From positions 744,001-808,000 of the forward strand of contig JAHDVF020001353.1 in the NCBI GenBank assembly GCA_022606425.2: a stretch of DNA of 64,000 nucleotides. Direction: 5' to 3'. Shown here piece by piece: positions 2,521-63,045 of this stretch. Both the position numbers and the translations under genes were made by a program. The notes beneath the pieces were generated by a model. It ran no database searches, was not told the origin of the DNA, and worked only from the letters and a program-made list of their open reading frames with translations. Within the stretch, counting starts at the first letter, position 1. Each line of letters opens with the position of its first letter. This stretch comes from Lepidostoma basale (taxonomy: Eukaryota; Arthropoda; Insecta; Trichoptera; Lepidostomatidae).

Positions 2521-2560
2521 AACCAACCGGTTTCGCTCCCGGCGGGGCTTCGTCAGGGTT
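2521..2560 (-). ncRNA. Hammerhead ribozyme motif, family E
   Basis: On the minus strand: stem I AACC, core CUGACGA (2556-2550), one extra A, stem II GCCCC/GGAGC around a GCCG loop, GAA, self-complementary stem III ACCGGU, cleavage nucleotide U, then GGUU pairing with AACC. All core positions except the extra nucleotide match the hammerhead consensus. Stem II has one A.C mismatch, which is repaired in the sister copy at 24.95 kb. Confidence 0.75.
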
Positions 2561-2567
2561 ACAAAAT

Positions 2568-2625
2568 ATATTGTAAAAGCTCCGGCGATAACGAAATCGG
2601 TTAGTTTTTGATAAGAATAAAATGG
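2568..2625 (+). repeat. Degenerate inverted partner of family E
   Basis: Opposite-strand relative of the preceding motif (GCTCCGGCGATAACGAAA, then TCGGTTAG). It forms an inverted pair with 2521-2560, and its CUGANGA box is lost. Confidence 0.5.
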
Positions 2626-2784
2626 TGTAAACACAAATTTAAAAAGTGTATTAATATAAGATTTAAACTTTTATGATTAAAAACTTAGTATTCAACCATC
2701 ACGCCGTATCACCGACAGATAAGCGGCCACTTGGATGGCTTGCACGTTAAATTATAATGAACATAATATTTCGTATTTGAATAA

Positions 2785-2935
2785 ATAAACTAAAGGCGTT
2801 AACACTGTGGAATTCCATAATGACGATTTTTTTATGAATTAAAACACTGTTTTTTCCACTTTTGAGTTAACACTTGAGTGACTCAAACGTAGAAAAAACG
2901 GTGTATTAATCCATAAAACAATCGTGAATAAATAA
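2785..2935. repeat. Family A palindromic repeat without ribozyme loop
   Basis: Left arm starts GGCGTTAACACTGTGGAATT and reaches ACTTTTGAGT. The right arm is its diverged inverse. The central hammerhead section present at 62.7-63.0 kb is missing, so this is an internally deleted copy. Confidence 0.65.
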
Positions 2936-2941
2936 AATGAA

Positions 2942-3075
2942 TACTAACTAATCATCACGTCGTCTTTCCAAAGAGGTATTCAGCAAGAATGGTCCACTAT
3001 TGTTCTATTATGACATACTTCTCTAGCTTCCTCAAGATTCCTTCATCGTGTCATGCACACATTTCGCATTTTTAT
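2942..3075 (-). mobile_element. RTE-A 3' end
   Basis: Begins with ACTAACTAATCATCACG, the inverse of the TTAG-tailed 3' end, followed by the inverse of the block encoding the MTRCMNVEEAR region. Confidence 0.75.
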
Positions 3076-3139
3076 TTAATAAATCATCCAAATACAGTTT
3101 TCCATTCCTTTATTTAAAGAAGAAGTCTTTTGGGGCGAC

Positions 3140-3345
3140 AACAATAGACTTATTTATTGTTTCCTGAATAACGATGTATAATTCCATATTAACTTATTTA
3201 TACGAATGAAAACGTCTGTTTATGATATTTTATTATATTTTACGACAAGTTTCGCCTCGCTAATACACTAAGGAATATCTTTTGATTATAACCTTTGCAA
3301 AGCGAAACTCGCCATTTCCATAAAAAATATATTTTCATTAATATT
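3140..3345. repeat. Family K palindrome with decayed hammerheads
   Basis: Outer sequence ATACGAATGAAAACGTCTG, then GACAAGTTTCGCC on one arm and GCGAAACTCGCC on the other. These are decayed forms of the K motif, which has ACATGT as stem III. Confidence 0.6.
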
Positions 3346-3394
3346 ATTTTTTTAATAATTTTCAAATCAAATATTCAATAATAACAAAAGATTC

Positions 3395-3660
3395 CGTTTT
3401 CTAGAAGTTATATTTTATTATATGGGAATGACGTGTTAAAATAGGTGTACTGCCTCACTGGCGTCGACATATTTGGATTCCTTCTGATATGTATGATTTT
3501 TTGGTCTCATGTTGTTTTGTTTTATTTTATCTTTGTAATACCGTTTTGTGTCCAAATGAGTCGCCTAAATGTTTTATCGTTTGTAATGTCTCATTTGTGT
3601 ATCATGTATAAATAAATAAATAAAAATACACTAGCACTTCTAGAAAACAGACGTTTCAAT
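3395..3660. repeat. Family K arms flanking an inserted 3' UTR-like segment
   Basis: K arms at about 3395-3430 (TTTTCTAGAAG) and 3635-3660 (CTTCTAGAAAACAGACG) enclose about 200 bp ending in AAATAAATAAATAAA. The insert looks like the 3' end of a poly(A)-type retroelement; its family is not recognised. Confidence 0.5.
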
Positions 3661-3849
3661 TCATATTATAATAATATACGAGTACATTTCAAATATTATC
3701 ATAAACACATGTACGATTCCCATACAAATACGATAAATGATCTTATTCAATCTCTGAAGCATTATTTAATAGCACATGTTCTCGAAATATCCGATGTCGT
3801 ATATTTCCAAATATATTATAGTTACATTACGCTATAATTTCTACTAATA

Positions 3850-4164
3850 CAATAGAACGTCGTTTATCTGGACGTCAGTTAACCGGAACGTCAATTATCC
3901 GGCCAAGCCGAGATGATTAAGGGTTCCGTACCGTGGCCTACGCATGACTAAGCTTACCCCACCACACATACACAACGTTGGGTGTGGGTTGCATCATTCC
4001 TTGCAGCGGGGTTCTCCCCGCGCCCTACGGACAGTCAGTCTCCCGCTGTGTTCGAGTTTCAGCGTGTCATCTCGTTAGTTTCAACCTGTTATTTTTTATT
4101 CGAGATTACGTGTGATTATACGGAAATACGGTATCCGGAACACGGGATAAACGATTTTCTATTG
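3850..4164. mobile_element. Jerky/pogo-like MITE, 315 bp
   Basis: Terminal inverted repeats CAATAGAACGTCGTTTATC (left) and the inverse of CAATAGAAAATCGTTTATC (right), flanked by TA on both sides. Repeated CGG/TTATCC motifs near the end resemble jerky-group termini (known form CAGTNGAACCTCGATTATCC). It has no transposase. Confidence 0.65.
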
Positions 4165-4552
4165 TACATTATAATTTCTTAGACTACACCCCCTTCAGAG
4201 TATCCTATTCCCGATTCATACATAGTTCCGTCTCTAACAATCTCGGGAACGAGTTACTATTCCGCAAACACAAATGTCGTTAAATGGATTACATACACCA
4301 AATGACTTCCAGATTGCAGACTTGCCAGAGACAAAAACAGTATTTAGTCCATGTTTAGAAGGAACTTAACGTGTTTAAATTGTATTTGCTAATACTGTAG
4401 CGTATCCCATATTTTTTTTATGTGTTGCACTCAATTATCTCTCAACCTTCTGTGAATCAACGAAGCTTCGATTTAAAATTCAAATTCAAAAAGAGAATGC
4501 ATCGTTAAAATAACTAAGTGCATTGATTATTGAGTAATTAAAATTTGATATA
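4165..4552. other. No gene seen
   Basis: AT-rich, no recognised repeat. Confidence 0.4.
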
Positions 4553-4605
4553 ATTAAGGCGTTTGCACTGTGGAATTATAATAACGATGAATTTTATGAA
4601 TTCCT
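4553..4605 (+). repeat. Family A left end, interrupted
   Basis: AAGGCGTTTGCACTGTGGAA matches the family A terminus and is cut off at about 4605 by LINE debris. Confidence 0.55.
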
Positions 4606-4795
4606 CTTCTTCTTCCTAATGCGTATCTCACTCTAACCGTCCATGGTATATTGAGAATTTTCCTGTACGTCCACATATCAAAAGGTTCTACCCTTAAAAG
4701 CGTCTGTTCATAGGTCTCTCACTCTAGCCGTCCATAGTATCTTGACACCGGTACGTCCAAATATCAAAAGTTTCGAGTCTTCTCATTCAGAGTTT
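4606..4795 (-). pseudogene. LINE remnants, two copies of one segment
   Basis: Minus-strand pieces resembling the WTYR...IPWTARV region of RTE-type ORFs occur twice in a row (about 4615-4685 and 4690-4790). Both are heavily decayed, and the clade is tentative. Confidence 0.45.
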
Positions 4796-4920
4796 GTTAT
4801 TTAATAAGATGTAAATTAGTAAGTGAGTAAAATCAAACTACCTATTAGTTTGATTTTGAAATCATATATATTCAAATAAATATAGTTACACTTTGAATTA
4901 CAACACTTATTATTTTTACT

Positions 4921-4966
4921 GAACTCAGACATGTTTCGGTTACAAGTAACCTTTATCAATGTATAC
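4921..4966 (-). ncRNA. Hammerhead-like motif J1 with U3-A8 core pair
   Basis: Minus strand: UUGAUAA (4959-4953) in place of CUGANGA, an extra A, stem II GGUUAC-UU-GUAACC, GAA, stem III ACAUGU (palindromic), C17, then UGAG. The C3 and G8 positions are jointly U and A, which keeps the core base pair. Confidence 0.6.
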
Positions 4967-4984
4967 AATTTTTCAAAAAAATTG

Positions 4985-5030
4985 TGTACATTGATAAAGG
5001 TTACTTGTAACCGAAACATGTCTGAGTTCA
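4985..5030 (+). ncRNA. Hammerhead-like motif J2 with U3-A8 core pair
   Basis: Same as J1 on the plus strand: UUGAUAA 4991-4997, extra A 4998, stem II 4999-5012, GAA 5013-5015, ACAUGU 5016-5021, C17 5022. Stem I is weak (two adjacent pairs), so activity is uncertain. Confidence 0.6.
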
Positions 5031-5071
5031 GTAAAAATAAAAAGTGTTGTAATACAAGGTGTAACTATATT

Positions 5072-5445
5072 TAATTGTATCTCAATAGAGACGAAGATGC
5101 AAATTGGAAACTGAATATGGTTGATCAAGGTGTTTACAGGACTTATGACCTGTCATTGGTTGGGTTAAGCGCACGCTTTATGTAATCACAACATTCCCCA
5201 TTCCACCTTTATCTTTATGACCATGTATGACAAATTTTTGGAAGTTGTATATATGTTACAAATCTATGCCTTATTTCACATGTCAGTTTCAATGTGCCAT
5301 CTATGAAGATTTTGATTACATGTGTTAATCTTTTTAAGATTACTCTATATATAATCTACATACTAACGCCATCTATGGAGATTTATGTTTATTAAGCATT
5401 AAGCAGAACATCTTTTTAACTTCAATGTGAATGGCTATCCCGCTA
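5072..5445 (+). repeat. Family N repeat, copy N1
   Basis: Family N arms start ATTGTATCTCAATAGAGACG and continue with TGACCTGTCATTGGTTGGG and ACATTCCCCATTCC. Complete arms end in an outer block AATGTATAC...CCCATTGCGG. This copy stops before the outer block. No transposase ORF, so it is non-autonomous. Confidence 0.75.
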
Positions 5446-5499
5446 TATAACTATATAACTATTATATATAACTATATTTATTCAAATATGAAACCACAA

Positions 5500-5984
5500 C
5501 ACAAAGTGAAGGCGAATATAGAAGAAAATCATGTATATTATTTTATGGAACATACACATTTTTTTTCAAAATAACTGGAATTTTTATAAATGAGATATCC
5601 CTAAATCCAATTCTCCCGTTGTTTGATTTAGGACTCCCTTATAATAATACATTTTATCTTATGTTGTAATTCTTTTATCCCGGTGTCTTACAACCCCATT
5701 TAGTGAGATTATAAAGCAACCCCTATTTTTTTCTGTTCAATTTCTTAGGAAAAAGGCAATCTTGATTACGGGCGATCGGCGACCTCGATACAAAAAAAGC
5801 TTTTTATCAAATTTGTAATATCATCCAGCGCGGGCGGATCGGAAAATGTTTTACCGAAAATTCTGCCATCAGCCGAATTCCCGCCTAACAAAATTCTGTT
5901 CACACTTTCTAAATGATTTTGCGATATAAGTGTGCCTTACGCGTTTGGTACAGGGTGAACTGTGATTTTTTAACAATATTTTTA
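5500..5984. other. No gene seen
   Basis: Somewhat GC-richer stretch around 5760-5960, no recognised repeat or domain. Confidence 0.4.
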
Positions 5985-6568
5985 ATTTAATTGTATCTCA
6001 ATAGAGACGAAGATGCAAATTGGAAACATAATATGGTTTATCGAGGTGTTAACAGGACTTATGACCTGTCATTGGTTGGATTAAGCGCACGCTTTATGTA
6101 ATTACAACATTCCCCATTCCACCTTTCTTATGACCATGTCTGACAAATTTTTGGAAGTTGTATATATGTTTAAGTCCAACACTAGATTTCACATGTCATT
6201 TTCAATGCGCCATCTAAGAGGATTTTTGATTAAATATGTTAATCTCTAAGATTACTCCATATATAATATACATACTAACGCCATCTATGGAGATTTATGT
6301 TTATTAAGCATTAAGCAGAACATCTTTTTAACACAATGTGAAAGGCTACCCCGCAATTAGCGCATTGTTAAAAGCCGCCTGGAGATGTCACTCCTATCTA
6401 TATGCCAAACTTTAGACCAGATATGATTACAATATACGAGTATATTTTTTAATGTATACATATACTTGTATACGAATACTGGATTTCACCCATTGCGGGT
6501 TATCAATTCATGATTTAATTCCGCAATGGGTGAAATCCAGTATTCGTATACAAGTTTATGTATACATT
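5985..6568 (+). repeat. Family N repeat, copy N2, with both outer blocks
   Basis: A full arm ends with an outer block (about 6452-6500: AATGTATACATATACTTG through CCCATTGCGG), immediately followed by the inverse block (about 6522-6568). This gives a short terminal hairpin. Confidence 0.75.
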
Positions 6569-6589
6569 CCAAAAAAAATATTTTATGTA

Positions 6590-6772
6590 TATTTTTTTAA
6601 GTCTAACAAGGATTTCAATCAATGATATGAGAATTTTGTTTTACAATCTTCAATATGAGCAGAAAATAGCTCATTATTATGAAGAAGTAATCTGTTCGTG
6701 TCCAGGCTTGAAACCAAGATCCCTGAATCAGTAACCAAGCGTTCTATCTGGTAGACCACATCTGGTAGGTTC
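6590..6772 (-). mobile_element. tRNA-derived SINE (Arg-CCT-like), diverged copy
   Basis: Inverse of the tRNA-SINE best seen at 57418-57600: body GAGCTATTTTCTGCTCATATTG and a tRNA-like head with B box GTTTCAAGCCTGG. This copy is more diverged in the A-box half. Confidence 0.7.
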
Positions 6773-7404
6773 ATAATACTAATAATCGTACTCCATATTC
6801 ACCTTAATTTTTATTTCTAAATTCCCACAAGAATAACTATTAGAAAACCTTTTTTTTACATAAACTTAAGGCTCACCTGTGAATTTTCATAAAGACTGTT
6901 CTTTCCACTTTTGAAAAATGAAAAAAAAATGTTCTAATTCATGTGAGAAAATTATTTAGGAGAGTAATCGCAGGCAGTCTCTCCTCTCTACCTACCTCCT
7001 TGAAGGGAACGATAAGATTTATAATTAATTTTCTTTAATAATGGCGATATTAAACCAGGAAGGAATTGTTATTAATTCTGCCATTAAAACATTATGTTTT
7101 TGTAGTTACGTTTCATTTCTATGACAATACGTGTTGAAAAGCTATTTCAAAAGAGAACTATTCATTCGGAAACCTTCGGCATCGACGAAGATAGTCGAAT
7201 GACATGATGATATGATATTTTATGTAAATGCACCAATTTATTGAATTTTCGCCTGCAGTTCAGACTTAACAGAGCTTGAAAATCACCGCTTTGACCTCCC
7301 TAATAGCGAGTTCACACGGAACCAAACTTTCACTGTTTACTTTTTAATATCGATAAAAACGATTTTTTCTTTTTCTTTCCCTTATTGTGGATCTTGCAAT
7401 CTGT
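6773..7404. other. No gene seen
   Basis: AT-rich, no recognised element. Confidence 0.4.
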
Positions 7405-10943: not shown

Positions 10944-11490
10944 ATGTATACAAATACTTGTAGACAAATACTGGATTTTACCCATTGCGGGTAAATTATT
11001 TTTTATAAGGATTAATTGTATCTCAATAGAGACGAAGATGTAAATTGATTTTTCTGGGAACAGAATATGGTGGTCGAGGCGCTTACAGGACTTATGATCT
11101 GTCATTGGTTGGGTTATGCGATCGCTTTATGTTAACAACATTCCCCATTCCGCCCTTCTTACTTAGCACTGTATGATAATTGCAAAGTCATTGCATTAAT
11201 AAAAAAATTCTGCTTAATGCTTACACCCAATCTTAATGGATGGCGCTAGTGTAGATTGAACTAGAAAATGTGAAGTATTCCTCAACATTGTAGCATATAT
11301 ACATCTTTCAAAAATTTATCAGACGTGGTGGTCGTAAGAAGGGCGGAATGGGGAATATTGTTAACATAAAGCGATCTCTTAACCCAACCAATGACAGGTC
11401 TTAAGTCCTGTAAGCGCCTCGATCACCATATTCTGTTCCCAGAAAAAAACAATTTACATCTTCGTCTCTATTGAGTTACAATTAATCCTT
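10944..11490. repeat. Family N palindrome (two arms)
   Basis: Outer block and plus arm (10944-11160) followed by a minus arm (about 11190-11490). The two arms are inverse relatives separated by about 30 bp, so the transcript would fold into a long hairpin. Confidence 0.75.
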
Positions 11491-14272: not shown

Positions 14273-14559
14273 TATTAGGTGTATAACTTTGCCTCCGCCG
14301 TTTTTTCCCCGAAATTCGAGGCCTTATCGTAAAAAACTGGTTATACATTTATGATTCAAAGTATTGTCCATCGCTGGCCACTACTTTCTTCCATCTTTCG
14401 GGCAGCATACGAATCCCGCGTTGAAAAAACTGGTCATCTTTTGAAGCGATCCACGAATCGATCCAATTTTTTACTTCTTCATAAGACCGGAAGTGCTGGT
14501 CAGCTAGGCCGTGTGCCATTGATCGAAACAAGTGATAGTCCGAGGGAGCAACGTCTGGA

Positions 14560-14593
<34 letters not shown>

Positions 14594-15564
14594 AAGTTTC
14601 CAAGTATGTCTTGACCACTTTTGCAACATGGGGTCGAGCATTGTCATGCTGTAAAATCACTTTATCATGTCTCTCGTTGTATTGCGGCCGTTTGTCTTTC
14701 AATGCTCGGCTCAAACGCATTAATTGCGTTCAATAACGATCGCCTGTGATTGTTTCAGTCGGTTTTAACAACTCATAATACACTACGCCGAGCTGGTCCC
14801 ACCAAATACTGAGCATAACCTTGGAACCGTGAATATTCGGTTTGGCCGTCGACGTGGAAGCATGGCCGGGATATCCCCATGATTTTCTGCGCTTGGGATT
14901 ATCGTAATGAACCCATTTCTCGTCCCCAGACACAATGCGATGCAGAAATCCCTTCCGTCTTTGCCTTGCAAGCAGCTGTTCACAAACACACAAACGCCGT
15001 TCAACATCTCTCGGCTTCAACTCGTACGGCACCCAATTTCCTTGTTTCTGAATCATTCCCATGACTTTCAGGCGTTTTGAAATGGCTGGTTGCGTCACTC
15101 CCAATGATCCTGCCAATTATTGTTGCGTTTGACACGAGTCTTGATCAAGTAATGCCTCCAATTCTGCATCTTCGAAAACCTTCTCTCTTCCACCGCCATG
15201 CTGGTCTTCGACGTTAAAATCACCGTTCTTGAAGCGTTGAAACCACTCTCGGCACGTTCTTTCACTAATAGCGGCCTCACCATAGGTATTTGAGAGCATT
15301 CGATGAGCCTCAGCCGCAGATTTCTTCATATTAAAGCATAAAATTAAAACCTCCCGCAAATGACGAGAATTTGGCTCGTAAGCTGACATGTTTAATCGGG
15401 AATAACTTTATGATGCAGACACAAATCGACTAATATTTCGATGGCGTTATGTTTACAAATACTTAAGCTTATTGTATGACATCTATGATCTATTTATTCC
15501 AACTATCACTTACCGCTACTGCCATCTATTGCAAAACGGCGGAAGCAAAGTTATACACCGTATA
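14273..15564 (-). mobile_element. Mariner transposon, nearly complete
   Basis: About 1.29 kb with inverted ends around GGTGTATAACTTTGC and CCGCCGTTTT on both sides and TA at the tips. Length and ends are those of a full mariner. The transposase inside has two stops. Confidence 0.9.
14349..15389 (-). pseudogene. Mariner transposase, two in-frame stops
   Basis: Reading from ATG at 15389 one frame covers about 346 codons, the normal length for mariner (about 345). The N-terminal half has a helix-turn-helix DNA-binding region (SERTCREWFQRFKNGDF). The catalytic domain shows SGDEKW (first Asp), HDNARPH (second Asp) and YSPDVAPSDYHLF (third Asp). Thirty-four residues separate the second and third, which makes it DD34D. 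The linker motif is WVPYEL, close to the usual WVPHEL. The frame is broken only by TAA at 15117-15119 and TGA at 14730-14732; no frameshift is seen. The protein would cut and paste its own DNA at TA sites. It is inactive as written but recently degenerated. Confidence 0.92.
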
Positions 15565-19794: not shown

Positions 19795-20000
19795 AACTCA
19801 TTTATTTCTAATACGAATGAAAACGTCAGTTTTCTAGAAGTTTTTTATATTTTATGGGAATGACATGTTTCGCCCTTCTAAGGCATTCGTATTAATTATT
19901 CTGTACGTTTACGTTGATGTACGTAAACGTTTTCATTCGTATTAATTATTTAAAATGGAGTTTTACATCATTGTTTAAGAAACATTTAACACTTATTTTT
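19795..20000. repeat. Family K repeat with partial hammerhead
   Basis: Minus-strand GCCUUAGAAGGGC hairpin, GAA and ACAUGUC at 19863-19885. The core box is truncated. Confidence 0.6.
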
Positions 20001-23350: not shown

Positions 23351-23400
23351 TTTTTACACCTGAAGATGGAGGTATCCTCCGGAACATGTTGTGTTTTTTA
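23351..23400 (+). ncRNA. Hammerhead motif D1, one core change
   Basis: Stem I ACAC, core CUGAAGA 23360-23366, extra U, stem II GGAGG/CCUCC with UAU loop, then G-G-A in place of GAA (A13 to G), stem III ACAUGU, U17, GUGU pairing with ACAC. The sister D2 (43.55 kb) keeps GAA. Confidence 0.65.
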
Positions 23401-24469: not shown

Positions 24470-24895
24470 AAAATAATATCTCAATAGATACGAATATGCA
24501 AATTGTTTTTTGGAAACAGAATATGGTGGTCGAGGCGTTTACAGGACTGTCATTGGTTGGGTTAAGCGATCGCTTTATGTAATACAACATTCCCCTTTCC
24601 GACCTTCTTACGACCACCACGTCTGACAATATATGCTACTATGTTGAGAAACACTTCACATATTTTAGTTCAGTCTACACTAGTGCCATCTATTAGGATT
24701 AGATGTAAGCATTACGCAGAAAAAACTTTATTAATGCAATGTGAAATCCTGTAAACGCCTCGACCACCATATTCTGTTTCCATAAAACAATTTGCATCTT
24801 CGTCTCTATTGAGATACAATTAATCCTTAAATGATTAACCCGCAATGGGTAAAATCCAGTATTTGTCTACAAGTATTTGTATACATTAAAAAAAA
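24470..24895. repeat. Family N palindrome, copy N8
   Basis: Plus arm 24475-24740, then minus arm 24744-24835 and outer block to TTGTATACATT at 24886. Confidence 0.75.
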
Positions 24896-24936: not shown

Positions 24937-24980
24937 GACACCAAACGGTTTCGCTCCCGATGGAGCTTCGTCAGGGTAAC
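24937..24980 (-). ncRNA. Hammerhead ribozyme motif, family E
   Basis: Core CUGACGA (24974-24968), extra A, perfect stem II GCUCC-AUCG-GGAGC, GAA, ACCGUU (one change from palindromic ACCGGU), U17, then GGU pairing with ACC. Confidence 0.7.
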
Positions 24981-25009: not shown

Positions 25010-25350
25010 ATTTTTTCTAAAAAAGTTTATTATGAATATAGTTATATTTTATTTTATGTGACTGACATGTTTCGCCCCATATTTGATAATGCCTTAGGCA
25101 GGTGAACATCTCAATCACATAAAATAAAATAAAACTTCTAGAAAATAGACAATTTCATTCGAATTCATAATGCATATTAAATCATTAATACGAAAGTGAA
25201 AACGTCTGTTTTCTTGAATTTTTCTCAAATTAAACGAGAGCTGTTTCAGAAAATTGATAGTTTCTTAAAGCTGTGCAAGGCCAAACATTTCATTTCCGTA
25301 AATTATAATAAAACTTCTAGAAAACATTTGTTTTCATTCCTATTTATTAT
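25010..25350. repeat. Two family K palindromes in a row
   Basis: First copy 25010-25188: minus-strand CTGACATGTTTCGCC and plus-strand UUGAUAA (25083-25089), U, GCCU/AGGU stem, GAA; one A is lost after GAA. Second copy 25190-25350 is more decayed. Confidence 0.65.
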
Positions 25351-27099: not shown

Positions 27100-27190
27100 T
27101 TTTGTGGTTACATTTTTCTCGACATGTTTCGAAGGTTACGATAAAGTATTTATATATAATAGTTTTCTCAATGATGAAGTTAAACCACCT
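27100..27190. repeat. Decayed family A hammerhead repeat
   Basis: TTCTCGACATGTTTCGAAGG on one side and TTTCTCAATGATGAAG on the other. Confidence 0.5.
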
Positions 27191-27684: not shown

Positions 27685-27797
27685 AATACACTGAAAAGCA
27701 ACGGGAAACTACCACATCAAAAAAGCCCAAGTGGCATCCCATGAACCAGCAAGGATATTAATAAACTTTGCTGTAAACCAATCCCAGGATAGAAACT
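27685..27797 (-). repeat. Dispersed repeat, inverse copy
   Basis: Inverse of 10360-10455: GCAACGGGAAACTACCAC, CCAAGTGGCATCCC and ACTTTGCTGTAAACC. Confidence 0.55.
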
Positions 27798-32319: not shown

Positions 32320-32560
32320 AGTTAAGGCGTTAACATTGTGGAATTCCATAATGATGAATTTTTATAAATTAAAACACTGTTTTTTTTTCACTTTTGAGTT
32401 TATTTTTCTCGAAATGTTTCAAAGGCTTACACCTTCGTCATCGGGAGAACGATAGTTTATATCGTTCTCCCGAAACACCCTTCGAAACATGTCGAAAAAA
32501 ATAAACACAAAAGTGGAAAAAACAGTGTTTTAATTCATAAAAATTTGTCATGTCGGTAAC
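32320..32560. repeat. Family A palindrome
   Basis: Left end AAGGCGTTAACATTGTGG and arms meeting at the CGTTCTCCCG centre. Minus-strand hammerhead box reads CCGAUGA (32444-32438); the plus-strand partner has lost its box. Confidence 0.75.
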
Positions 32561-32639: not shown

Positions 32640-32890
32640 TCCGTATTTTCGAAATTTTAATTTATAACTGTTAATGCAAAAACTTTGTTCTATATCACAA
32701 TTGTATTTATTTTACGACAGCTGTTTCAGGTAACACCTGATGATGTCAACATTAGTTGATGAAACAGCTATCGTAAAATAAATACAATTGTGATATAAAA
32801 CAAAGTTTTTGCATTAACAGTTATAAAATGTTAAAGTATCATAGTGTTTCCGCCAAAACAATAGACTACGAAATTTTATTGTTACATATT
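32640..32890. repeat. Family B' palindrome
   Basis: Arms ACAATTGTATTTATTTTACG and inverse around 32735. Minus partner is deleted from CUGA straight to AAAC; plus partner is intact (next entry). Confidence 0.75.
32730..32778 (+). ncRNA. Hammerhead ribozyme motif, family B'
   Basis: CUGAUGA 32737-32743, extra U, stem II GUCAAC-AUUA-GUUGAU (32745-32760), GAA, stem III ACAGCUAU, C17 at 32772. Stem I weak. Confidence 0.7.
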
Positions 32891-34673: not shown

Positions 34674-34850
34674 TGTTACGTTCTCCCAACGATCAAGGTG
34701 TAAAGCCTTCGAAACATGCCGTGAAAAATAAATTCAAGAGTGGAAAAACAGCGTCTTAAATTTTAAAAAAATTGTCTTTCTCACGATGATGAAGGCGTAA
34801 AGCCTTCGAAACATGTCGAAAAAAATAAACCGAAAAGTGGAAAAACAGTA
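34674..34850 (+). repeat. Direct tandem of two family A hammerhead units, 97-bp period
   Basis: TTCTC of stem I starts at 34681-34685 and again at 34778-34782. Both units contain the AAGG/CCTT stem II, CGAAACATG and the GTGGAAAAACAG 3' part. Unit 1 core is CCAACGA, unit 2 ACGATGA, so both are decayed. This is the only head-to-tail pair in the window. Confidence 0.75.
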
Positions 34851-37975: not shown

Positions 37976-38042
37976 AATTAAAAAATAATATAATAATTAA
38001 ATAAAACGATGTTTTTTAACTACTTCCACTTTTGTCTTTATT

Positions 38043-38092
38043 TAGACAGCGACCGGTTTCGCCAGACTCGCTGGCATCGACAGACTGGTAAC
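38043..38092 (-). ncRNA. Hammerhead motif, family F, one core change
   Basis: CUGUCGA (38083-38077; A6 to U), extra U, stem II GCCAG/CUGGC, GAA, ACCGGU, C17, with stem I CAGU/GCUG. Only the A6 change spoils an otherwise complete motif. Confidence 0.6.
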
Positions 38093-38099
38093 ACTATTG

Positions 38100-38551
38100 T
38101 AAACTTAGTCCTTTATATACATACAGATCAGGGGTGGTAAACATGATTCTATACAAAAATAATCTTCATATGTTTATGTAAAAATTTTCTGAATTTAACT
38201 ATTGGTATTACAGGTATTCTTGGAGGTTCGTGTTTAATACAATGGGTTTTAATTTTTATTATCTCTTACATATTCATATATAATGTTTGAAAATATGGTA
38301 ATTTTGTTTAAATTATTACTGAATTTAAATATTATATGTTATAGTTCTTGGTCCGTAAGGTTGGCCGCGCCTTATTCGGTTTTCCCAATCCATATAGCTG
38401 CTAGGGTCTGGAATCAATCAAAAACACATTTTGGGCAGTAATCGATTCCAGGAATATTTTTTATTTATTTATATGGGGTATAGCAACGGGGAGTGCACAA
38501 ACAGTATTTGGTCATTAAGAACTAGTTCTACACTCCTTTCCTAAAGTAAAA
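38100..38551. other. No gene seen
   Basis: Nothing recognised. Confidence 0.35.
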
Positions 38552-42147: not shown

Positions 42148-42425
42148 TATGTTTTATATCGCACCGTGAGTGTAAAACCGAAACCAGTGCAAATATACAG
42201 TTTAGAGATATGGGAGTTTCAAGACTTCATATTGCTTGGAAAAACTGTTTTTTTTTTAATAAACCAATGATTCTCAGTTTAATTTAATATACCTATCAAC
42301 CGAAAATCATGGGTTTATTAAAAAAAAAACTGTTTTTCCAAGCAATGTGAAGTCTTTAAACTCCCATATCTCGATACTGTATATTTGCACTTGTTTCGGT
42401 TTTACACTCACGGTGCGATATATAA
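42148..42425. repeat. Palindromic MITE, about 275 bp
   Basis: Arms of about 100 bp starting TCGCACCGTGAGTGTAAAAC; the centre is AT-rich with polyA/T runs. TATA stands at both tips. Confidence 0.7.
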
Positions 42426-43545: not shown

Positions 43546-43585
43546 AACATGACATGTTTCGGAGGATACCTCCATCTTCAGGTGT
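43546..43585 (-). ncRNA. Hammerhead ribozyme motif D2
   Basis: CUGAAGA (43581-43575), extra U, stem II GGAGG/CCUCC, GAA, palindromic stem III ACAUGU (43557-43552), C17. Stem I partly paired (ACA/UGU with a mismatch next to the core). Confidence 0.7.
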
Positions 43586-43649: not shown

Positions 43650-43915
43650 TCTCCCTATTAATCCGTTGCTCTTATTAAATCACCTGTGAAATATAGTTAT
43701 TGCATCGTCCATTGTTTTGGCCGAAACACAATGAAACTGTTATAATACCACAATTTCTTTTTATTCACTGAGAGTGTCTCTACAGCTGTTTCGCCAACCG
43801 ACGTTGGCATCATGAATAAAAATACTGTTTTTTCCACTTTTGAGTTTATTTTTCCCGACATGTTTCGAAGGCTTACACCTTCATCATCGGGAGAACGATA
43901 TAAACTTATTATTAT
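43650..43915 (-). repeat. Fused B and A hammerhead repeats
   Basis: B unit (43650-43812) has the GCCAAC/GUUGGC stem II and ACAGCUGU, but its CUGAUGA box is cut at the join. It is followed by A unit with CCGAUGA (43890-43884) and GAAACAUGUC. Confidence 0.7.
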
Positions 43916-44745: not shown

Positions 44746-44860
44746 ATCTTGGAGATATAATAATTATAAAATATTTCTTGTTTTTAAGCTTTTTTTTCAA
44801 ATTTGAAATAACACAATTTCTTCATAAATCAATATCACAATTTATTTTTATTCACTGAGA

Positions 44861-44910
44861 ATGTCACAACAGGTGTTTCGCCAACCGACGTTAGCATCAT
44901 CAGGTGTTAC
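44861..44910 (-). ncRNA. Hammerhead ribozyme motif B2
   Basis: CUGAUGA (44903-44897), extra U, stem II GCUAAC-GUCG-GUUGGC, GAA, ACACCUGU, U17, GUGACA. Stem I UGU/ACA and CAC/GUG with a two-base bulge. Confidence 0.72.
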
Positions 44911-45184
44911 AATAAACTTATTGACGAATTTTAATTAATTAAAACACTGTTTTTCTACTTTTGAGTTTATTTTTCTCGACATGTTTCGAAGGCTTACACT
45001 TTTATCAACGGGAGAACGATATAAGTTTATATCGTTCTCCCAATGATGGAGGTGTGTAAGCCTTCGAAACATGTCGAGAAAAATAAACTCAAAAGTGGAA
45101 AAAACAGTGTTTTAATTCATACAAATTCGTCATTATAGAATTCCACAGTATTAACGCCTTAAGTTTATCTAAAAATAAACTTAT

Positions 45185-45235
45185 TGTAACACCTGATGAT
45201 GCCAATATCGGTTGGCGAAACAGCTGTAGAGACAC
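45185..45235 (+). ncRNA. Hammerhead ribozyme motif B3
   Basis: CUGAUGA 45193-45199, extra U, stem II GCCAA-UAUCGG-UUGGC (45201-45216), GAA 45217-45219, palindromic ACAGCUGU 45220-45227, A17, then GAGACA (GUGACA in B2). Confidence 0.75.
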
Positions 45236-45669
45236 TCTCAGTGAATAAAAAGAAGTTTTAAATTTAACAGTAATCATGTAGTATCATAGTGTTTCGGCCA
45301 AAACAATGGACGATGAAATAACTCTATTTCACAGGTGATTTAATAAGATCAACGGATTAATAGGGAGAACGAGTTATCGAGGTACGCAATAACGAGGAAC
45401 TCGCAGCGTTTACTCCGCGTAGTAACAAAATTATTCTTATCCTGATCACGTTTCGCTTTAACGAGGTACAAATGAGTCGGAACTGCGTCTAAGTGAATAA
45501 TTACCACGAGGAGACTCTTATTCTTACTGCATCGTCAATCCAGCACTTATATTTCTAATTACTTTCAACTTCCGTTAATTAGCGAGACAAATAAGCGGCC
45601 ACTTGGATGGGTTGCACGTCAAATTACGAGGAACATAATATTTTGTATTTGAATAAATTAAATTAAAAT

Positions 45670-46174: not shown

Positions 46175-46562
46175 TTAGGTCCTTACATATGAAATTGGCG
46201 TTTTGTATGGGGGGAACAAAAAGTTGATTTTTTTTAAATATAATATATTTATTTAATCAAAGTATGTACCATTGCTATCTATGCACTTTTGCCATCTCAT
46301 AGGTAGTTCATCGATCCCTTTACTAATAAAAAAACAATTCGGACGGGAATCAATAAAATCTTTGAAGTCGGTTTGGACTGCCCCATTGGAGTTGAATTTT
46401 TTCCCTTGCAAGAAGTTATCCAAATTTCGAAAAAAATAGTAATCTGTTGGGGCAAGGTCCGGAGAGTACGGTGGATGTCTTAAACATTCCAATTGAAGCT
46501 CTTCTAATTTGGTAGCCGTCTGTTGTTCAGTGTGTGGTCTAGCGTTATCATGAAGCAGCAGC
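46175..46562 (-). pseudogene. Mariner transposase C-terminus and one TIR
   Basis: Minus-strand LHDNARPHTEQQTATKLEE, RHPPYSPDLAPTDYYFF and CIDSNGTYFD, then stop. HDN to TDY is again 34 residues (DD34D). The end TTAGGTCCTTACATATG follows TA. N-terminal half absent. A third, distinct mariner family in the window. Confidence 0.88.
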
Positions 46563-46880
46563 AGTTCCGTAGTGATGATATTGTTTTATTTGCCGCGCTG
46601 CAGAACCAACCTGCCAATGGTTATGCCTGTGGGTAGGGCAATTTTATTGCTTAATCGGGTCGTGTCGGAGGTCGACATATTTCGTGATAGTGTGAGTTGC
46701 CTCAGGGATGCAATATCAATGTTAGGATTCTTTCTAATTCTTAAGCTTAATTTTATATATATATATATATATTTTTTTTTTGCTTCTCTTATAATTTCTC
46801 ACAATGTAATTGCAAACGATCTGGAATTATATGTCTGTAATGTTTGTGATTTTTATTAAAATAAATGAAAAAAAAAATGA
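46563..46880. other. Unidentified retroelement-like segment
   Basis: 46590-46650 resembles 16845-16900; (AT)n at about 46757-46775. No domain. Confidence 0.3.
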
Positions 46881-48690: not shown

Positions 48691-48860
48691 ATTAAATAGT
48701 CCATTGTTTTGGCCGAAATTGATATGATATGATACCTTATAATTTAAAACTGTTGAATAAAACAACTTTGTTTTTTGTATCACAATTGTTTTTTTATTTT
48801 ACGCGACAGCTATTTCATCAACCTATGTTGACATCATCAGGTATCACAATAATATATCAA
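48690..48860 (-). repeat. Family B' single arm
   Basis: TAGTCCATTGTTTTGGCCGA also occurs near the other B and B' repeats (43.7, 45.3 kb). Contains the ribozyme motif below. Confidence 0.65.
48799..48846 (-). ncRNA. Hammerhead ribozyme motif, family B'
   Basis: CUGAUGA (48840-48834), extra U, stem II GUCAAC-AUAG-GUUGAU, GAA, AUAGCUGU, C17 (a GUC site), GCGU. Canonical core throughout. Confidence 0.75.
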
Positions 48861-58044: not shown

Positions 58045-58485
58045 GGAATTAAAGTGTTATGAACAAAATAATGAAAGGAACATTAATATGGTTTGGACAC
58101 ATAAAAATATTGAATGAATGGTAATAAAAGTATATATTAGCGATTTTAATGGAATAAGAAATAGTGGAAGATCGAGAAAATCGTGGCACGATCAAATAAA
58201 TAAAATGTTGAATGTCGGCCACTTGAGGAGTCATTGAAATCGAAGTGCGTATATGACACCATGTATGAAGGACTTGGACTTGGATCTTCTGGCTTACAGA
58301 GCTTCAGCTCTAATGGCTATTCCTCTTTCGTCTGTAGGAACCATTGTTGGAATGTGATTTGGTAGTTGTTTTATGAAAGGAAACGAGAGAAGTATGTCAA
58401 GAAAAGTGCGGCAGTCTAATTTTCCGCCTACCCTTCTGCCTACCCTTTCGGGGAGACGGCGTGATTGTTAGTTAGTTAGTTAGTT
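58045..58485 (+). pseudogene. RTE-A 3' part with a 105-bp insert
   Basis: Reads from VMNKIMKGTLIWFGH-like sequence to the TTAG-type tail. The foreign segment lies between TATGAAGGA (58264) and TATGAAAGGA (58372). Confidence 0.78.
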
Positions 58486-58705
58486 TTCTCTATACGTCAA
58501 CGATGTAAATGAGATTGAAAAAATACGCCAAAACATAATTAAACAAATTTTAAAAAAAGCCGGAAAATCGATGCGCGTGTATGATTTGCTATATGAATGT
58601 GGAGGAAGCCAGAGAGTTTTCTCAGGATAGCGAAGTGTGGTGGTCCTTTCTCTCTGCCTACCCTGTCGGAGAAACAGCGAGATGGTTGGTTGTTGTATTA
58701 TATTC
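58486..58705 (+). mobile_element. RTE-A 3' end, TTG-tailed
   Basis: CTATACGTCAACGATGTAAA, ATGAATGTGGAGGAAGCC and GATGGTTGGTTGTTGT. Confidence 0.8.
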
Positions 58706-58724
58706 TGCAATTCTAATGCTTATT

Positions 58725-59320
58725 ACTAACTAACTAACTAACCATCACGCCGTCTCCCCGAAAGGGTAGGCAGAAAGAATGGACTGTCACACTTTAACCG
58801 ATGCGGCACTCCATCCTTCTCTTTTCGCCCCGCGGGAGACGCGGTGTGATGGGTTGCGAACCTCATCGCCACCAATAGGCATCTCCCGCGCACACTTCGA
58901 TCTTCTAACATCCACAAAATAAATCTAAAACAAAAAATATAAAATACACTGATATAAAATAAAATAACAAAATAAAAATAATTTAATACAAAATGTTATT
59001 TTTTAGATGGAGCACATTTGTCTATTTAATTTATGTTCCACGAATCCACCGTTTTTTTTTAATTTAGCACATAATGTAATAACACATAATGTTTTTCCGA
59101 TGTTGCACATGTTGACATGGACGATCCGGACTTTTGTGTTTCTTTGATTTATGTTACACGTATCCACCGTTTTTTAAATTAGCTGTTATATGATTTAATT
59201 AATGTTCCACGTATCCACTTTTTTTTATTTTGCAGTAATTAGGCACTTAAAACCAACTAACACCAACAAGAACTTTAAAAGAATATTGAAGAAATTATTC
59301 AAATTGTCATTGTCTAATGC
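58725..59320 (-). mobile_element. SINE2 (RTE-A-tailed), long copy
   Basis: Inverse of the 31535 element with an expanded AT-rich 5' part; GTTCCACG(A/T)ATCCACC-like units recur three times (about 59035, 59150, 59208). Confidence 0.78.
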
Positions 59321-59334
59321 TTATTCTTTTTGTT

Positions 59335-59580
59335 ATATCTGTATCGGAGGTTGAACAACATCATGACTATTATTACTTTTGATACTGCAGCTACATGGTT
59401 TATGTTCTGCTATAATTAAACGATTCTCGAAGGTATTCTATCCTGTATTTTCTACTTCTATCCGTTAATTCTACCTTGCATAATCAGTTTCTCATAACGT
59501 GCCCGAAGTATTTAAGTTTCCTGTGCTTTGTGATCATGGATGTGTGATGATATACGGCGTGATGGTTAGTTAGTTTATAA
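59335..59580. mobile_element. LINE debris followed by an RTE-A tail
   Basis: 59340-59550 reads like a minus-strand RTE-type remnant (AACGTGCCCGAAGTATTTAA). 59552-59580 ACGGCGTGATGGTTAGTTAG is a plus-strand RTE-A tail. Confidence 0.45.
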
Positions 59581-59649
59581 AAATGTTTCTTTACGTGTAC
59601 GGACTCCGTTTCAAACTGTTGGTATTTTCAGTATTCCTTTCCTTCAATC

Positions 59650-59765
59650 CTTCGAATGCAGCTTCGCCCAGTACGGGATTTGAACTCGGAAATATTGGAT
59701 TTTCCTGCAACTGGCGAGTTAGCTTTATTGGCTTTTCGTGTTGGTTTCGATCCTATAAACTTTTC
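59650..59765 (-). repeat. Possible tRNA-derived sequence
   Basis: Minus-strand B-box-like GAGTTCAAATCCCGTACTGG; A box weak (AGCTAACTCGCC). Confidence 0.3.
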
Positions 59766-59999
59766 CATTGTTTTAAACCAAATAACAATACACAATTTTA
59801 AAATTGCGTTTCTTTTAAACTCACAATAATACTGATGAAACTTTTCACGTCTAAAAAAAAGTTTCAAAAATGTATAATCTTTTTTATATTATAATTTTAT
59901 TGTTTTTTTTTCAATAAGATATTATAGGAGAAATTTCCTTTCAGAAATCAATGAATCTTATCACAATTTTATATTTATAAACATATTATTCGAGGGCAG

Positions 60000-60330
60000 A
60001 CACTGTCAAGACAAAGAGCATGCTCAGGACAACCGCGATGAAAACACTCCGCGCTATAGCTGGCAAAACCCTACGTGATCGAGTTAGGAATACAATAATC
60101 CGAGAAATCTGCGAGGTCAAAAATGTGGTCAGATGGGGTCGTCAAAGACAGCGATACTGGCATCAACATGTAGAAAGAATGAGCTCCAATAGGATACTAG
60201 ACATAGCTCTCCATGAAACGCCGACCAGGAAGACCCCCGAAACGGTGGAGAGAAAGCTGGAGTTCAGCGTCTCAAGAGGACCCGCCTGAAATAACAGACT
60301 CCTGAGTCTATCAAAAGTGAAGAAGAAAAA
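60000..60330 (+). pseudogene. RTE-C LINE fragment
   Basis: LRTTAMKTLRAIAGKTLRDR, RNTIIREICEVKNVVRWGRQ and RQRYWHQHVERMSSNRI, ending GGPA-like RGPA and AGTGAAGAAGAAAAA. Confidence 0.83.
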
Positions 60331-60349
60331 TTATATAACTAATCTATTT

Positions 60350-60745
60350 ATTATTTCTTGAACAATGATGTAAAACTCTATATTTAATAATGAATACGAA
60401 TGAAATCGTCTGTTCTCGACTCCGGTGGTACGGTCATGTGATGCGGAGAGACAATGAACACAGTCCAAAAAGCCCTCAGCATTCCTACAAAACCAAGAAG
60501 ACAAGGTCGCCCAATGGCAACATGGTGGGCCAGCATGGAAAAGGAGCTCCAACACGAGAACCTGACAGTGGAGATGACTCAAAATAGAAATGAGTGAAAG
60601 AATGAGTCAAAGAAGGAGAAGAAATTATCTGTTTAATAGTAGTTTTATTACTCGTATATTGTAGTTTATGGGAGTGACATATTTTGCCTATCTAAGCCAT
60701 TATCAAATAATATTTGATAATACCTTAGAATGGCGTTTTTATTCA
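60350..60745. repeat. Family K palindrome split by a LINE remnant
   Basis: K outer arm 60350-60417; the LINE C-terminus LRWYGHVMRRDN... (60418-60625, GAAGAAG end) interrupts it; K resumes TAGTAGTTTTATTAC with UUGAUAA and G12 changed to A. Confidence 0.65.
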
Positions 60746-60754
60746 TATTTAAAT

Positions 60755-61050
60755 TCCTTATGTATGGAAGTGAAGCTTGGAGCTGGCAAAAAAGAATAAA
60801 AGGATAAGTGCCGAAGAAATGAGATCACTGAGAAGAATGTGCGGGAAAACGATTTAAGAGATGTAAGGCGGATGATTGCATCATAAGTAAAATTAAAAAA
60901 GGATCCCTCAGATGGTTTGAGGGATCATGTTTTAATTCTCTGTCAGAACGAGAGAAGAATGGTCAAAATGTTGTATACAAGCAGTGTGAGTGGAAAGAGA
61001 AGTCGTGGAAGACCAAGGATAGCATGGCATGACCAAATTTACAAGAGTTT
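60755..61050 (+). pseudogene. RTE-A LINE fragment, SVSGKRSRG subfamily
   Basis: LMYGSEAWSWQKR, RMCGKT, GSLRWF, and RRMVKMLYTSSVSGKRSRG, with deletions between. Confidence 0.78.
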
Positions 61051-61228
61051 GTCGCAAAAGCTGTTTCGCCAACTTTGTTGCCAAAATTGCAACAAAATTG
61101 TATGTTAAATTTTCGTATGAAGCATTCACTTTGTGGTAAGACATTTAAAAAATATATATAATTTGTATTTAAAATAAAATAAAATAAAATCACTGCACTT
61201 TGTTTTTCATCACTATGCGGTTATTTTA

Positions 61229-61272
61229 ATTGCCGACTAGTTTCGCTTGTACCCAAGCTTCCTCAGTGCTTC
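61229..61272 (-). ncRNA. Hammerhead ribozyme motif I1
   Basis: CUGAGGA (61266-61260), extra A, stem II GCUUG-GGUA-CAAGC, GAA, palindromic ACUAGU (61241-61236), C17, GGCAAU. Stem I partly mispaired. Confidence 0.75.
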
Positions 61273-61317
61273 TTAATAACAGGCGTTAGGAATAACAGTA
61301 ATAACAGGCCTGTTATT

Positions 61318-61364
61318 TCGAAGCCCTGAGGAAGCTTAGGTACAAGCGAAACTAGTCGGCAATT
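61318..61364 (+). ncRNA. Hammerhead ribozyme motif I2
   Basis: Stem I GCC, CUGAGGA 61326-61332, extra A, stem II GCUU-AGGUAC-AAGC, GAA 61348-61350, ACUAGU 61351-61356, C17 61357, GGC. Complete core and stem I. Confidence 0.8.
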
Positions 61365-61440
61365 AAAATAACCGCATAGTGGTGAAAATCAAAATGCAGT
61401 GTTTTTATTTTATTTTAAATACAAATAATAATAAAAAAGT

Positions 61441-61689
61441 TAATTGCATGTGTATAAACAAAATGTTTGTTTTAACAACATGAAATATTTGACTGGATCT
61501 GAATTCGATCAAAAGTTTCTCAACTTTTTGTATTCAAATCGTCGTCCCACTCGTAATTGAAAAATCCACATTCCCCAGCATCCGCTTTCTTATCTGAGTC
61601 CTACCAACATCATCCCGGCCCTACCAACGGCTCGGCAGCCTGACAAATTGCACAACTATTTTGCAGTGACGTGTGGTGGAAATATTTCA
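61441..61689. other. No gene seen
   Basis: Nothing recognised. Confidence 0.35.
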
Positions 61690-61905
61690 TTTGGATTAAT
61701 ATTTTTAAATACCTAGGCAGCATACTAACGCAATCTCTTGACCAGATATAGAGATAAAATATGGAATTGAGGCAGCAAGAGCTACGTTTAATAAAATGAA
61801 ATCACTCTTCTGCAATGATAACATAAACTTGAAACTCCGCCAGAGAATGATGAAATGCTATGTGTGGACTGTATGGATGTAAAACGTGGACCTTAAAATT
61901 CAATC
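61690..61905 (+). pseudogene. RTE-D LINE fragment
   Basis: FKYLGSILTQS, then (shifted) ARATFNKMKSLFCNDNINLK and LRQRMMKCYVWTV. Directly upstream in the ORF of the 13085/62141 type pieces. Confidence 0.7.
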
Positions 61906-61914
61906 ATTATTATT

Positions 61915-62140
61915 GATTTAGCCGCAATGGGTAAATTCCAGTATTTGTCTACAAATATTGGTAACATTCAAGAAAAACCAAAAACTGGTCCAAGTTTAAA
62001 AAGTATAAAAATTGGAGAAGTATTCTCCTGGCGTTGTCTAGCAAATGTGGCCTTTCACATTGCATTAATAAGATTTTCTGCTTAATGCTTACACATATTC
62101 TTAATAGATGGCGCTAGTGTAGATTGAATTAATAACATGT
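61915..62140 (-). repeat. Family N repeat, copy N11
   Basis: Outer block CCGCAATGGGTAAATTCC plus the GATGGCGCTAGTGTAGATTG region; cut at 62140 by a LINE. Confidence 0.65.
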
Positions 62141-62430
62141 GAAGTGTGTTGCAACATATTAGTCATAAAGTCTAGAAATATGGCATATTTGAGACACATT
62201 CTCCGCAACGAGAAATACGATCTGCTGCACCTCATCATGAAAGGGAAGATCGAGGGTAGGCGCGGTGTGGGAAGACCCCAGTTGTCCTGGCTCATAAATA
62301 TCAAGGAGTGGACCGAAATTCGGGGGTAGGGGGAGTTGTTCCGTGTGGCACAGGACAGAGAGACCTACACCAGGGTGACAGGGGGGCTTCGGGGGCCTGA
62401 CAAAAGCACTCGAAGAAGAAGAAGATTTAA
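62141..62430 (+). pseudogene. RTE-D LINE fragment, GAA tail
   Basis: MAYLRHILRNEKYDLLHLIM, KGKIEGRRGVGRPQLSWL, EWTEIRG stop GELFRVAQDRET and CGAAGAAGAAGA. Confidence 0.8.
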
Positions 62431-62699
62431 CTACTTATCACTTAGATCACAAAAGCAGAAGTATTTTTTTTACTTGTGTGTCAAAGGCCATTTGTTTAAG
62501 TCTTAAAGTATTAACTGTTCCTTTTCTAAATATATCTTTTACTAATAAAACACCCTCAACCCAAAACTTCCATTATAACACATAAAAATATTTTCAAATT
62601 TTAACCCATTAAGTCTCTGCTACTCTGCCTAAGTTAACAAACACACGTTATTATATAATATTTTCTTAGGTTCTTGCATTCACTTTGTAATAATTTTGG

Positions 62700-63045
62700 T
62701 AAGTTTATTTCGTTCTCCCGATGATGAATGTATAAAGTCTTCGAAACGTGTCGAGAAAAATAAACTTGAATGTATAAAAAACAGTGTTTAAATTACGATT
62801 TTTTTTATGAATTAAAACACTTTTTTTCCACTTTTGAGTTTATTTTTCTTGATATGTTTCGAAGGTTTACACCTTCATCATCAGGAGAACGATATAAAGA
62901 ATGAGTTTATATTGTTCTTTGGATGATGAAGGTGTAAGCCTTCCAAACATGTCGAGAAAAATAAACTCAAAAGCGGAAAAACAGGGTTTAATTCATAAAA
63001 AATTCGTCATTATCTAATTTCACAGTGTTAAGACCTTAAGTTTAA
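62700..63045. repeat. Family A cluster: three hammerhead arms
   Basis: Plus arm (62711-62765; core CCGAUGA), minus arm (62820-62890; core CUGAUGA), plus arm (62912-62965; decayed), then right terminus AGTGTTAAGACCTTAAG. Confidence 0.8.
62846..62889 (-). ncRNA. Hammerhead ribozyme motif, family A, canonical core
   Basis: Stem I UUCUC, CUGAUGA (62884-62878), extra U, stem II GAAGG/CCUUC, GAA, ACAUAU (ACAUGU in most copies), C17, AAGAA. It has U4, where most A copies have C. Confidence 0.72.

Follow-up and report, generated by a model that had tools for sequence, protein, structure and literature searches.

We analysed a 64,000-nucleotide (nt) stretch of the genome of the trichopteran Lepidostoma basale (contig JAHDVF020001353.1, positions 744,001 to 808,000; the window), which is scattered with short, mostly palindromic repeats that carry hammerhead-like ribozyme motifs. 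The repeats are very probably the termini of Penelope-like retrotransposons together with short non-autonomous derivatives of such termini, each bearing a type I hammerhead motif of minimal size, whose stem III box is palindromic and which has one extra nucleotide after A9. They belong to eight families, A, B, B', D, E, I, J and H, of which J and H were added in this analysis, and occupy the following positions of the window:

2525..2556, minus strand: E motif, CUGACGA-A, stem III ACCGGU, H17 U; left arm of palindrome 2471-2657
2577-2614, plus strand: E, degenerate; right arm of palindrome 2471-2657
4928..4959, minus strand: H hammerhead-like motif, C3U/G8A, UUGAUAA-A, stem II GGUUAC/GUAACC, stem III ACAUGU, H17 C; in palindrome 4870-5080 (93%)
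4991..5022, plus strand: H hammerhead-like motif, second arm
23360..23390, plus strand: D copy 1, A13 to G; found by the descriptor scan and by covariance model R2 (E=2.5e-4), both described below
24943..24974, minus strand: E motif, copy 2
32411..32444, minus strand: A hammerhead-like motif; left arm of palindrome 32351-32551
32737..32772, plus strand: B' motif, CUGAUGA-U, stem III ACAGCUAU; in palindrome ~32651-32840, inverted arm truncated
34679..34732, plus strand: A, degenerate; first of a direct tandem pair with a period of ~96 nt
34783..34817, plus strand: A; second of the direct tandem pair
37990..38527, minus strand: Penelope-like element, 5'-truncated, with the last codons of its open reading frame (ORF), 3' untranslated region, J hammerhead and tail
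38051..38083, minus strand: J hammerhead-like motif, CUGUCGA-U, A6 to U; Penelope terminal motif
43551..43581, minus strand: D copy 2, CUGAAGA-U, stem III ACAUGU; the same motif lies 3' of GIY-YIG coding sequence at genome locus L155
43781..43816, minus strand: B, 5' part of core lost at a junction
43857..43890, minus strand: A, CCGAUGA-U
44868..44903, minus strand: B motif; outer arm of nested palindrome 44839-45257
44966..45019, minus strand: A, degenerate; inner arm of the same palindrome
45040..45075, plus strand: A, CCAAUGA-U; inner arm of the same palindrome
45193..45228, plus strand: B motif; outer arm of the same palindrome
48805..48840, minus strand: B' copy 2
61235..61266, minus strand: I, CUGAGGA-A, stem III ACUAGU; left arm of palindrome 61157-61430
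61326..61357, plus strand: I; right arm of palindrome 61157-61430
62710..62764, plus strand: A, solo, degenerate
62851..62884, minus strand: A with CTGATGA; left arm of palindrome 62791-63011
62912..62965, plus strand: A, core TGGATGA, G12 to C; right arm of palindrome 62791-63011

An original prediction, made from the letters of the window alone, had named ten canonical sites. Read on one strand, each of the ten gives CUGANGA, one nucleotide, a hairpin, GAA, a 6- or 8-nt A…U box and one more nucleotide, and this layout is common to all eight families. All ten (10/10) have exact CTGANGA and GAA boxes, and reading both strands confirms an A…U box that is palindromic or nearly so. The list of copies was incomplete, missing D copy 1 (23360), J (38051), H (4928/4991) and further copies of A and B. 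The predicted order of CUGANGA, hairpin and GAA was correct as to the boxes but overlooked the extra nucleotide before the hairpin in every family: stem II does not directly follow A9, as it does in the type I hammerhead, but is separated from it by one nucleotide in 17/17 window copies. This nucleotide is U in 12 copies, A in 4, C in 1 and never G, and in genome arms it is A in 45/45 of family I, T in 40/41 of D and A in 26/28 of E. The plus-strand hammerhead of Chrysanthemum chlorotic mottle viroid (ChCMVd), in a viroid rather than a genomic element, likewise has an extra nucleotide between A9 and G10.1 (A in the viroid), and the accessible part of that report describes U as better than A, and C or G as harmful (PMC3705267). 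Because 16/17 copies here have U or A, the letters tolerated in the viroid, the extra nucleotide speaks for a hammerhead over any hairpin.

The core letters follow the hammerhead pattern closely, bearing in mind that the 17 copies counted were picked by a scan that scored the core. G8, A9, G12, A14, A15.1 and U16.1 are invariant (17/17); C3 is kept in 15 copies, U4 in 13, G5 in 15, A6 in 16 and A13 in 16. N7, the free position of the hammerhead core, is the most variable letter, with all four letters occurring, and H17 is C in 11 copies, U in 4, A in 2 and never G. The commonest sequences of B, B', D, E and I have an intact core, and the variation among them falls on N7, the stems and stem III. 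The prediction that the core stays the same across families holds for these five but not for every family, since A and J carry core substitutions in their common sequences (U4C and A6U, respectively), which speak against full activity. Position 4 of family A is C in 7/9 window copies and in 9/9 readable genome copies (8 CCGATGA, 1 CCAATGA; 10 fetched, all near-matches to a CCGATGA query). Site 62846, listed as canonical, does read CTGATGA, but its family's common sequence has C4; later CpG decay would account for the CUGAUGA of this one window A copy. The J sequence is CUGUCGA throughout the four arms of two copies of a Penelope-like element, at genome loci L151 and L152. In family H, U3 and A8 replace C3 and G8, a paired change that occurs in natural hammerheads and is active in vitro (PMC3088659, in the part available), and this again speaks for a hammerhead over any hairpin.

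The motif exceeds what chance would give. A descriptor scan that scored the core and stem I, and tolerated either no bulge or a 1-nt bulge after CUGANGA, gave 18 window matches, 17 of them within these repeats and all 17 with the 1-nt bulge; the 18th, at 27796, looks like chance, and neither the reversed window nor 4 Markov sequences gave any match. Because this descriptor had scored the core and stem I, we ran a blind test that ignored both and sought a Watson-Crick hairpin of at least 5 base pairs (bp), GAA and a palindromic A..T box. It found 12 window sites, and in 9 of them exactly 1 nt separates the hairpin from a preceding CTGANGA, up to 2 mismatches being accepted; none of the 12 has the core directly before the hairpin, one (AT-rich, at 3325) has it two nt before, and the reversed window gave 2 sites, neither with the core.

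Stems I and II stand in the hammerhead register. Stem I pairs in register at 20/21 positions in 7 family representatives, chosen as good copies (3-7/21 when slid), and at 43/51 in all 17 copies (12-23 when slid). Across 19 aligned copies standard pairs fill 90.0% of pair cells (shuffled 60.4 ± 2.5; slid 33-41%) and the covariation score is 0.786 (shuffled 0.201; slid 0.09-0.18), which bears out the common layout predicted for these families, with the proviso that copies within a family are related and the shuffles ignore this kinship. Stem II is paired in 97.9% of cells and stem I, which is weak in B, B' and H, in 80.3%. Of the five measures, two stand out less: the pairs with changes on both sides (8 of 9; shuffled 7.2) and the further pair types (26; shuffled 22.1). 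Covariance models, whose E-values are rough, also connect the families: model R2, built from E, I, J and H, recovers D (4.5e-5, 2.5e-4), A (0.003) and B (0.005) in the window, and a reciprocal model from A, B, B' and D is weaker (H 0.07, I 0.12, E 1.8, J 4.7).

The original prediction was right that the stem III box is self-complementary, but a hexamer cannot form a 3-bp stem in a monomer: it makes 1 bp and a tetraloop, or 6 bp in a dimer, and window copies as a whole give 1-2 bp as monomers and 4-8 pairs as dimers. In family B' the box is ACAGCUGU in 34/44 full genome arms, versus the ACAGCUAU of the window copy at 32737..32772. The suggested action as dimers is possible through this palindrome, but the dimer fold is better than two monomer folds in only 3/17 copies, with 1 tie. 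The motif might alternatively be a hairpin of the Penelope terminus, in RNA or DNA, that has a structural role or binds protein and was once a ribozyme or never one, an explanation that we hold to be possible but doubtful and that is compatible with an origin from Penelope termini. It would accommodate the U4C of the commonest A copies, the A6U in two J copies of an element with an open 758-amino-acid frame, the few copies in which a dimer is favoured, and the published insertion of hammerhead mutants (PMC11167929, in part). It fares worse with the five families that keep all core letters while everything around them varies, with an H17 that is never G, with an extra nucleotide of the kind tolerated in the viroid (PMC3705267), and with the natural pair change of family H (PMC3088659).

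Coding sequence links the motif to Penelope-like elements and takes this link beyond what had been predicted. We searched the whole genome (769 Mb, 1572 contigs); a first look gave 1235 candidates for I, 875 for D, 1272 for B', 1180 for E and 781 for A, of which 40 each were scored, and all five families have many genome copies. A search for GIY-YIG gave 62 matches, all above the cut-off, from 150 scored of 541 candidates. Loci L151 and L152 share the same 758-amino-acid open frame, with RVT_1 (1.4e-13) and GIY-YIG (6.6e-5) domains in L151 by Pfam; the assignment as reverse transcriptase (RT) draws on Pfam and one weak PDB match. Inverted repeats of ~455 to 660 bp flank this ORF, each with a J hammerhead identical letter for letter over its first 17 bases, and R2, whose training set included J, marks these arms too. 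In L151 the sense J hammerhead begins 389 nt after the ORF. The window copy at 37990..38527 is 97.2% identical over 538 nt to L151 3724-4261.

Two further loci extend the link. At L154, J lies downstream of a GIY-YIG match; at L155, a D hammerhead lies in a 700-base piece downstream of such a match (E 7.4e-7 with R2, whose training set did not include D). The D link consists of the GIY-YIG match adjoining L155 only; a frame with both RT and GIY-YIG stands beside the terminus in J (L151, L152). In all, a hammerhead motif is present in 4/4 GIY-YIG loci read far enough downstream (L151, L152, L154 and L155); none was found in the sequence read of L153, which ends just short of the expected place.

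Terminal anatomy connects family B' to the same elements. Penelope elements are described as having head-to-head pseudo long terminal repeats, an optional tail on one of them and target-site duplications of 8-10 bp (PMC3846280, in the text available), where the tail corresponds to the interval from one RT start site to another (passages of PMC11167929). The two arms of L151 and L152 stop at different distances from C3, one at 93 nt (C3+93) and the other at C3+137, and the additional 44 nt is confined to a single arm. In a strictly scored genome sample of B' (30 loci fetched, 29 distinct, as L115 repeats L104), 22/29 loci consist of paired head-to-head inverted arms, and no coding sequence was seen in the arms of the loci fetched. 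One arm ends at +130..146 and the other at +87..106 in 21/22 pairs, the exception being L113 (137 and 51), and the commonest ends are 93 and 137 after C3. Unpaired B' loci end at +132..137 in 6/7 cases, the seventh, L103, being the query. Inverted terminal repeats with an optional tail on one are thus found in L151, L152 and these 21 B' loci. Direct repeats of at least 8 nt border the outer ends of 13/20 paired B' loci (L113 and L124 left out), with a mean of 8.3, whereas shuffled flanks average 4.5 and reach 6.5 at most in 300 shuffles; several of these repeats are of low complexity. B', the one family examined, thereby has target-site duplications. With J and D beside coding sequence and B' sharing the terminal anatomy of the J element without coding sequence seen, the swarm most likely consists in part of non-autonomous derivatives of Penelope termini, as the original prediction proposed.

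Two window A palindromes have unequal arms, matching to ~+152 and +94 at 32.4 kb and to +132 and +95 at 62.9 kb, and look similar to the B' and J anatomy. An AAAC-n-GTTT hairpin lies at C3+62..70 in J, D, B' and A (found in 2.1% of random 55-nt pieces), and an AATAA..A[GT]TG block follows the cut site in 15/19 copies (against 1.5% of random pieces and 2.9% of those matched in GC) but is absent in D; both patterns were chosen after the tails had been seen. A first reading of the block as a poly(A) signal was abandoned; by its letters, AATAA in I and E may rather form an outer stem I with the 5' end of the element. Placing that 5' end at stem I agrees with family I (drop at -14) and disagrees with B', in which arms reach further upstream in several loci. 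The tail-less arms of L151 and L152 abut a (TA)n run, which fits the published preference for AT-rich targets.

The ends of truncated copies bear on how the repeats spread. Among 25 5'-truncated arms (10 of B', 7 of I and 8 of D) not one begins with the base that immediately follows the ribozyme cut, although 3/25 start 3 nt past it and BLAST ends may err by a few bases; uncleaved RNA is therefore the likelier insertion template, as far as the ends of these arms can tell. This is difficult to reconcile with animal non-long-terminal-repeat retrozymes, non-autonomous elements propagated as circular RNAs that arise when hammerheads cleave and ligate, a connection that the original prediction had drawn and that we now judge very unlikely. 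A type I hammerhead with a short palindromic stem III, retrozyme-like repeats reported in insects (PMC7229834, in part) and the one direct tandem pair of family A (34679/34775, period ~96 nt) would suit it. Yet retrozymes comprise tandem repeats of ~300 bp with a canonical type I hammerhead, whereas a tandem-repeat finder gave 4 short window arrays, none made of these repeats; all copies apart from that pair are solo or head-to-head inverted, which leaves the retrozyme reading unsupported, and B' insertions end near +93/+137 and not at the cut. Hardly credible are DNA transposons (miniature inverted-repeat or foldback elements) whose hairpin-rich termini resemble hammerheads as a by-product: the repeats are indeed palindromic, short, numerous and flanked by target-site duplications, but some copies have a single arm, paired arms are unequal and stop at fixed alternative positions, an RT and GIY-YIG element has these ends too, and the reversed window is free of the motif. 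All this speaks against such transposons, and no transposase gene was seen between the arms (no genome-wide search for one was made).

Several observations weigh against the assignment to Penelope termini with hammerheads. Coding sequence ties only J and D of the eight families to such elements, A, B, B', E, I and H being assigned by anatomy alone, and the genome-wide anatomy of ends covers B', I and D alone. With the window queries, neither I (most arms ~+100..118, a few near +92) nor D (most arms +90..101) has the 93/137 split, and looser alignment extends some of the short B' arms. The AAAC..GTTT hairpin was not found in E, H, I or B as tested. U4C in A and A6U in J should impair cleavage, judged from their sequences. 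Finally, the hammerhead covariance check proposed with the original prediction came out negative, Rfam giving no hammerhead at gathering score or E<=10 in the window or in two 81-base pieces. This negative has little power, since 0/12 viral loci with canonical hammerhead letters pass the gathering score either (12 of 21 loci found, candidates by letters).

We suggest a route by which the repeats may arise. The RT/GIY-YIG protein of an autonomous element would recognise the terminal RNA in trans, nick AT-rich target DNA and start reverse transcription at one of two fixed sites; where both target strands prime, the two complementary DNAs would join at their 5' ends to give a palindrome with ribozymes pointing outward. 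For the Anolis element, passages of PMC11167929 report cleavage and extension of both target strands, internal starts of RT on the RNA, continued insertion of hammerhead mutants, and a hammerhead that does not cut unless protein is present. Less surely, the hammerhead here would be a weak or protein-assisted ribozyme, perhaps dimeric, which trims multimeric or read-through transcripts, and cleaved RNA would not be the usual template. A more specific proposal, which we put forward tentatively and think somewhat unlikely, is a lineage-specific hammerhead subclass with an extra U or A after A9, a palindromic stem III and fixed spacing to two RT start sites (C3+93 and C3+137, as the insertion ends imply), whose role would be to shape or anchor a ribonucleoprotein at that spacing and not to cut the template, cutting occurring only with protein help. 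Such an anchoring role would explain the amplification of families with changed cores (A, J) and of terminus-only non-coding derivatives.

The closest known systems, compared by domains and anatomy and not by a tree, are members of the Penelope/Poseidon clade such as PAc of Anolis and Pen2a of Adineta vaga. They share an ORF with RT and GIY-YIG and a terminal hammerhead; head-to-head inverted terminal repeats with an optional tail of ~30-40 bp on one; and target-site duplications near 8-12 bp, two alternative 3' ends and AT-rich flanks. The L. basale repeats differ in that no coding sequence was seen with the termini that make up the short families, the tail measures 44 nt, the second terminal copy of L151 (5 kb) is inverted only, no direct one having been found there, and the hammerhead follows the ORF, whereas in PAc it stands at the ORF start (from the paper's text), the main ORF of the Anolis element beginning at stem II (PMC11167929). 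In L151, from 4174 onward, A9 together with the extra U and G10.1 spells an AUG, which begins a frame of 11 codons.

Minimal type I hammerheads of Penelope-like elements, dispersed in thousands in animal genomes, with reduced stem III and thought to be dimeric, are described in passages of a review (PMC7761336, citing Lunse et al. 2017; Cervera and de la Pena 2014). The present motifs are likewise minimal, dispersed and reduced in stem III; set against these small variants as the citing review presents them, the extra nucleotide after A9 in eight families is a difference, though it may stand in their consensus. Amphibian (newt, axolotl) satellite or retrozyme hammerheads share a single-pair helix III, a palindromic tetraloop and dimer action but form tandem repeats, and the accessible text mentions no extra nucleotide (PMC7229834). 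What is added here is the extra nucleotide in eight families, terminus-only palindromes, the 93/137 ends common to B' and the J element, and families with changed cores; no title or abstract among the matches listed describes these, and the extra nucleotide may already be in the consensus of Lunse 2017 or Cervera 2014. The role of minimal hammerheads in Penelope-like elements has been called a mystery (PMC7761336, same passages), and L. basale offers a natural experiment on it, with five families of intact core, one compensated and two of changed common core, and with copies of an element whose RT and GIY-YIG frame is open. Our results suggest that many dispersed minimal hammerheads may be terminus-only Penelope derivatives.

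The pattern CTGATGAT..CGAAACATGTCG occurs 0 times in viral contigs and 8 times in bacterial and archaeal genomes, about the estimated chance level; of the vertebrate-like letter patterns, one gave 0 and a looser one 11 viral loci; and a search of paper texts for the motif letters listed no relevant paper among its matches. Viral contigs of IMG/VR (L001-L021) have canonical hammerhead letters, for example L002 with a CCCA/UGGG stem I and a long stem III.

The window holds other elements. Pfam gave mariner-type matches in 3 of 10 window ORFs and nothing in 7; mariner/Tc1-type transposase fragments (Transposase_1, DDE_3) lie at 14349-15116 (minus) and 46253-46582 (minus). Long inverted repeats (92-95%) at 42718-42877/43250-43409, 11049-11447, 24472-24821 and 42152-42425 contain no hammerhead motif marked by any scan. 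Model R2 also scores positions 895-944 (plus) at 5.4e-5, where a hairpin GGCAG CAAG CUGCC is followed by GAAACCGUUCG; CUGA lies upstream of the hairpin in a poor core, and the match is unexplained. Further GAAACATGTC motifs, mostly after a hairpin and with no clear CUGANGA, lie at 19862-19886, 25064-25099 and 27112-27140 (all minus), and are possibly decayed or other Penelope termini; at 25064-25099 the flanks GTGATTG/CAGTCAC are able to pair.

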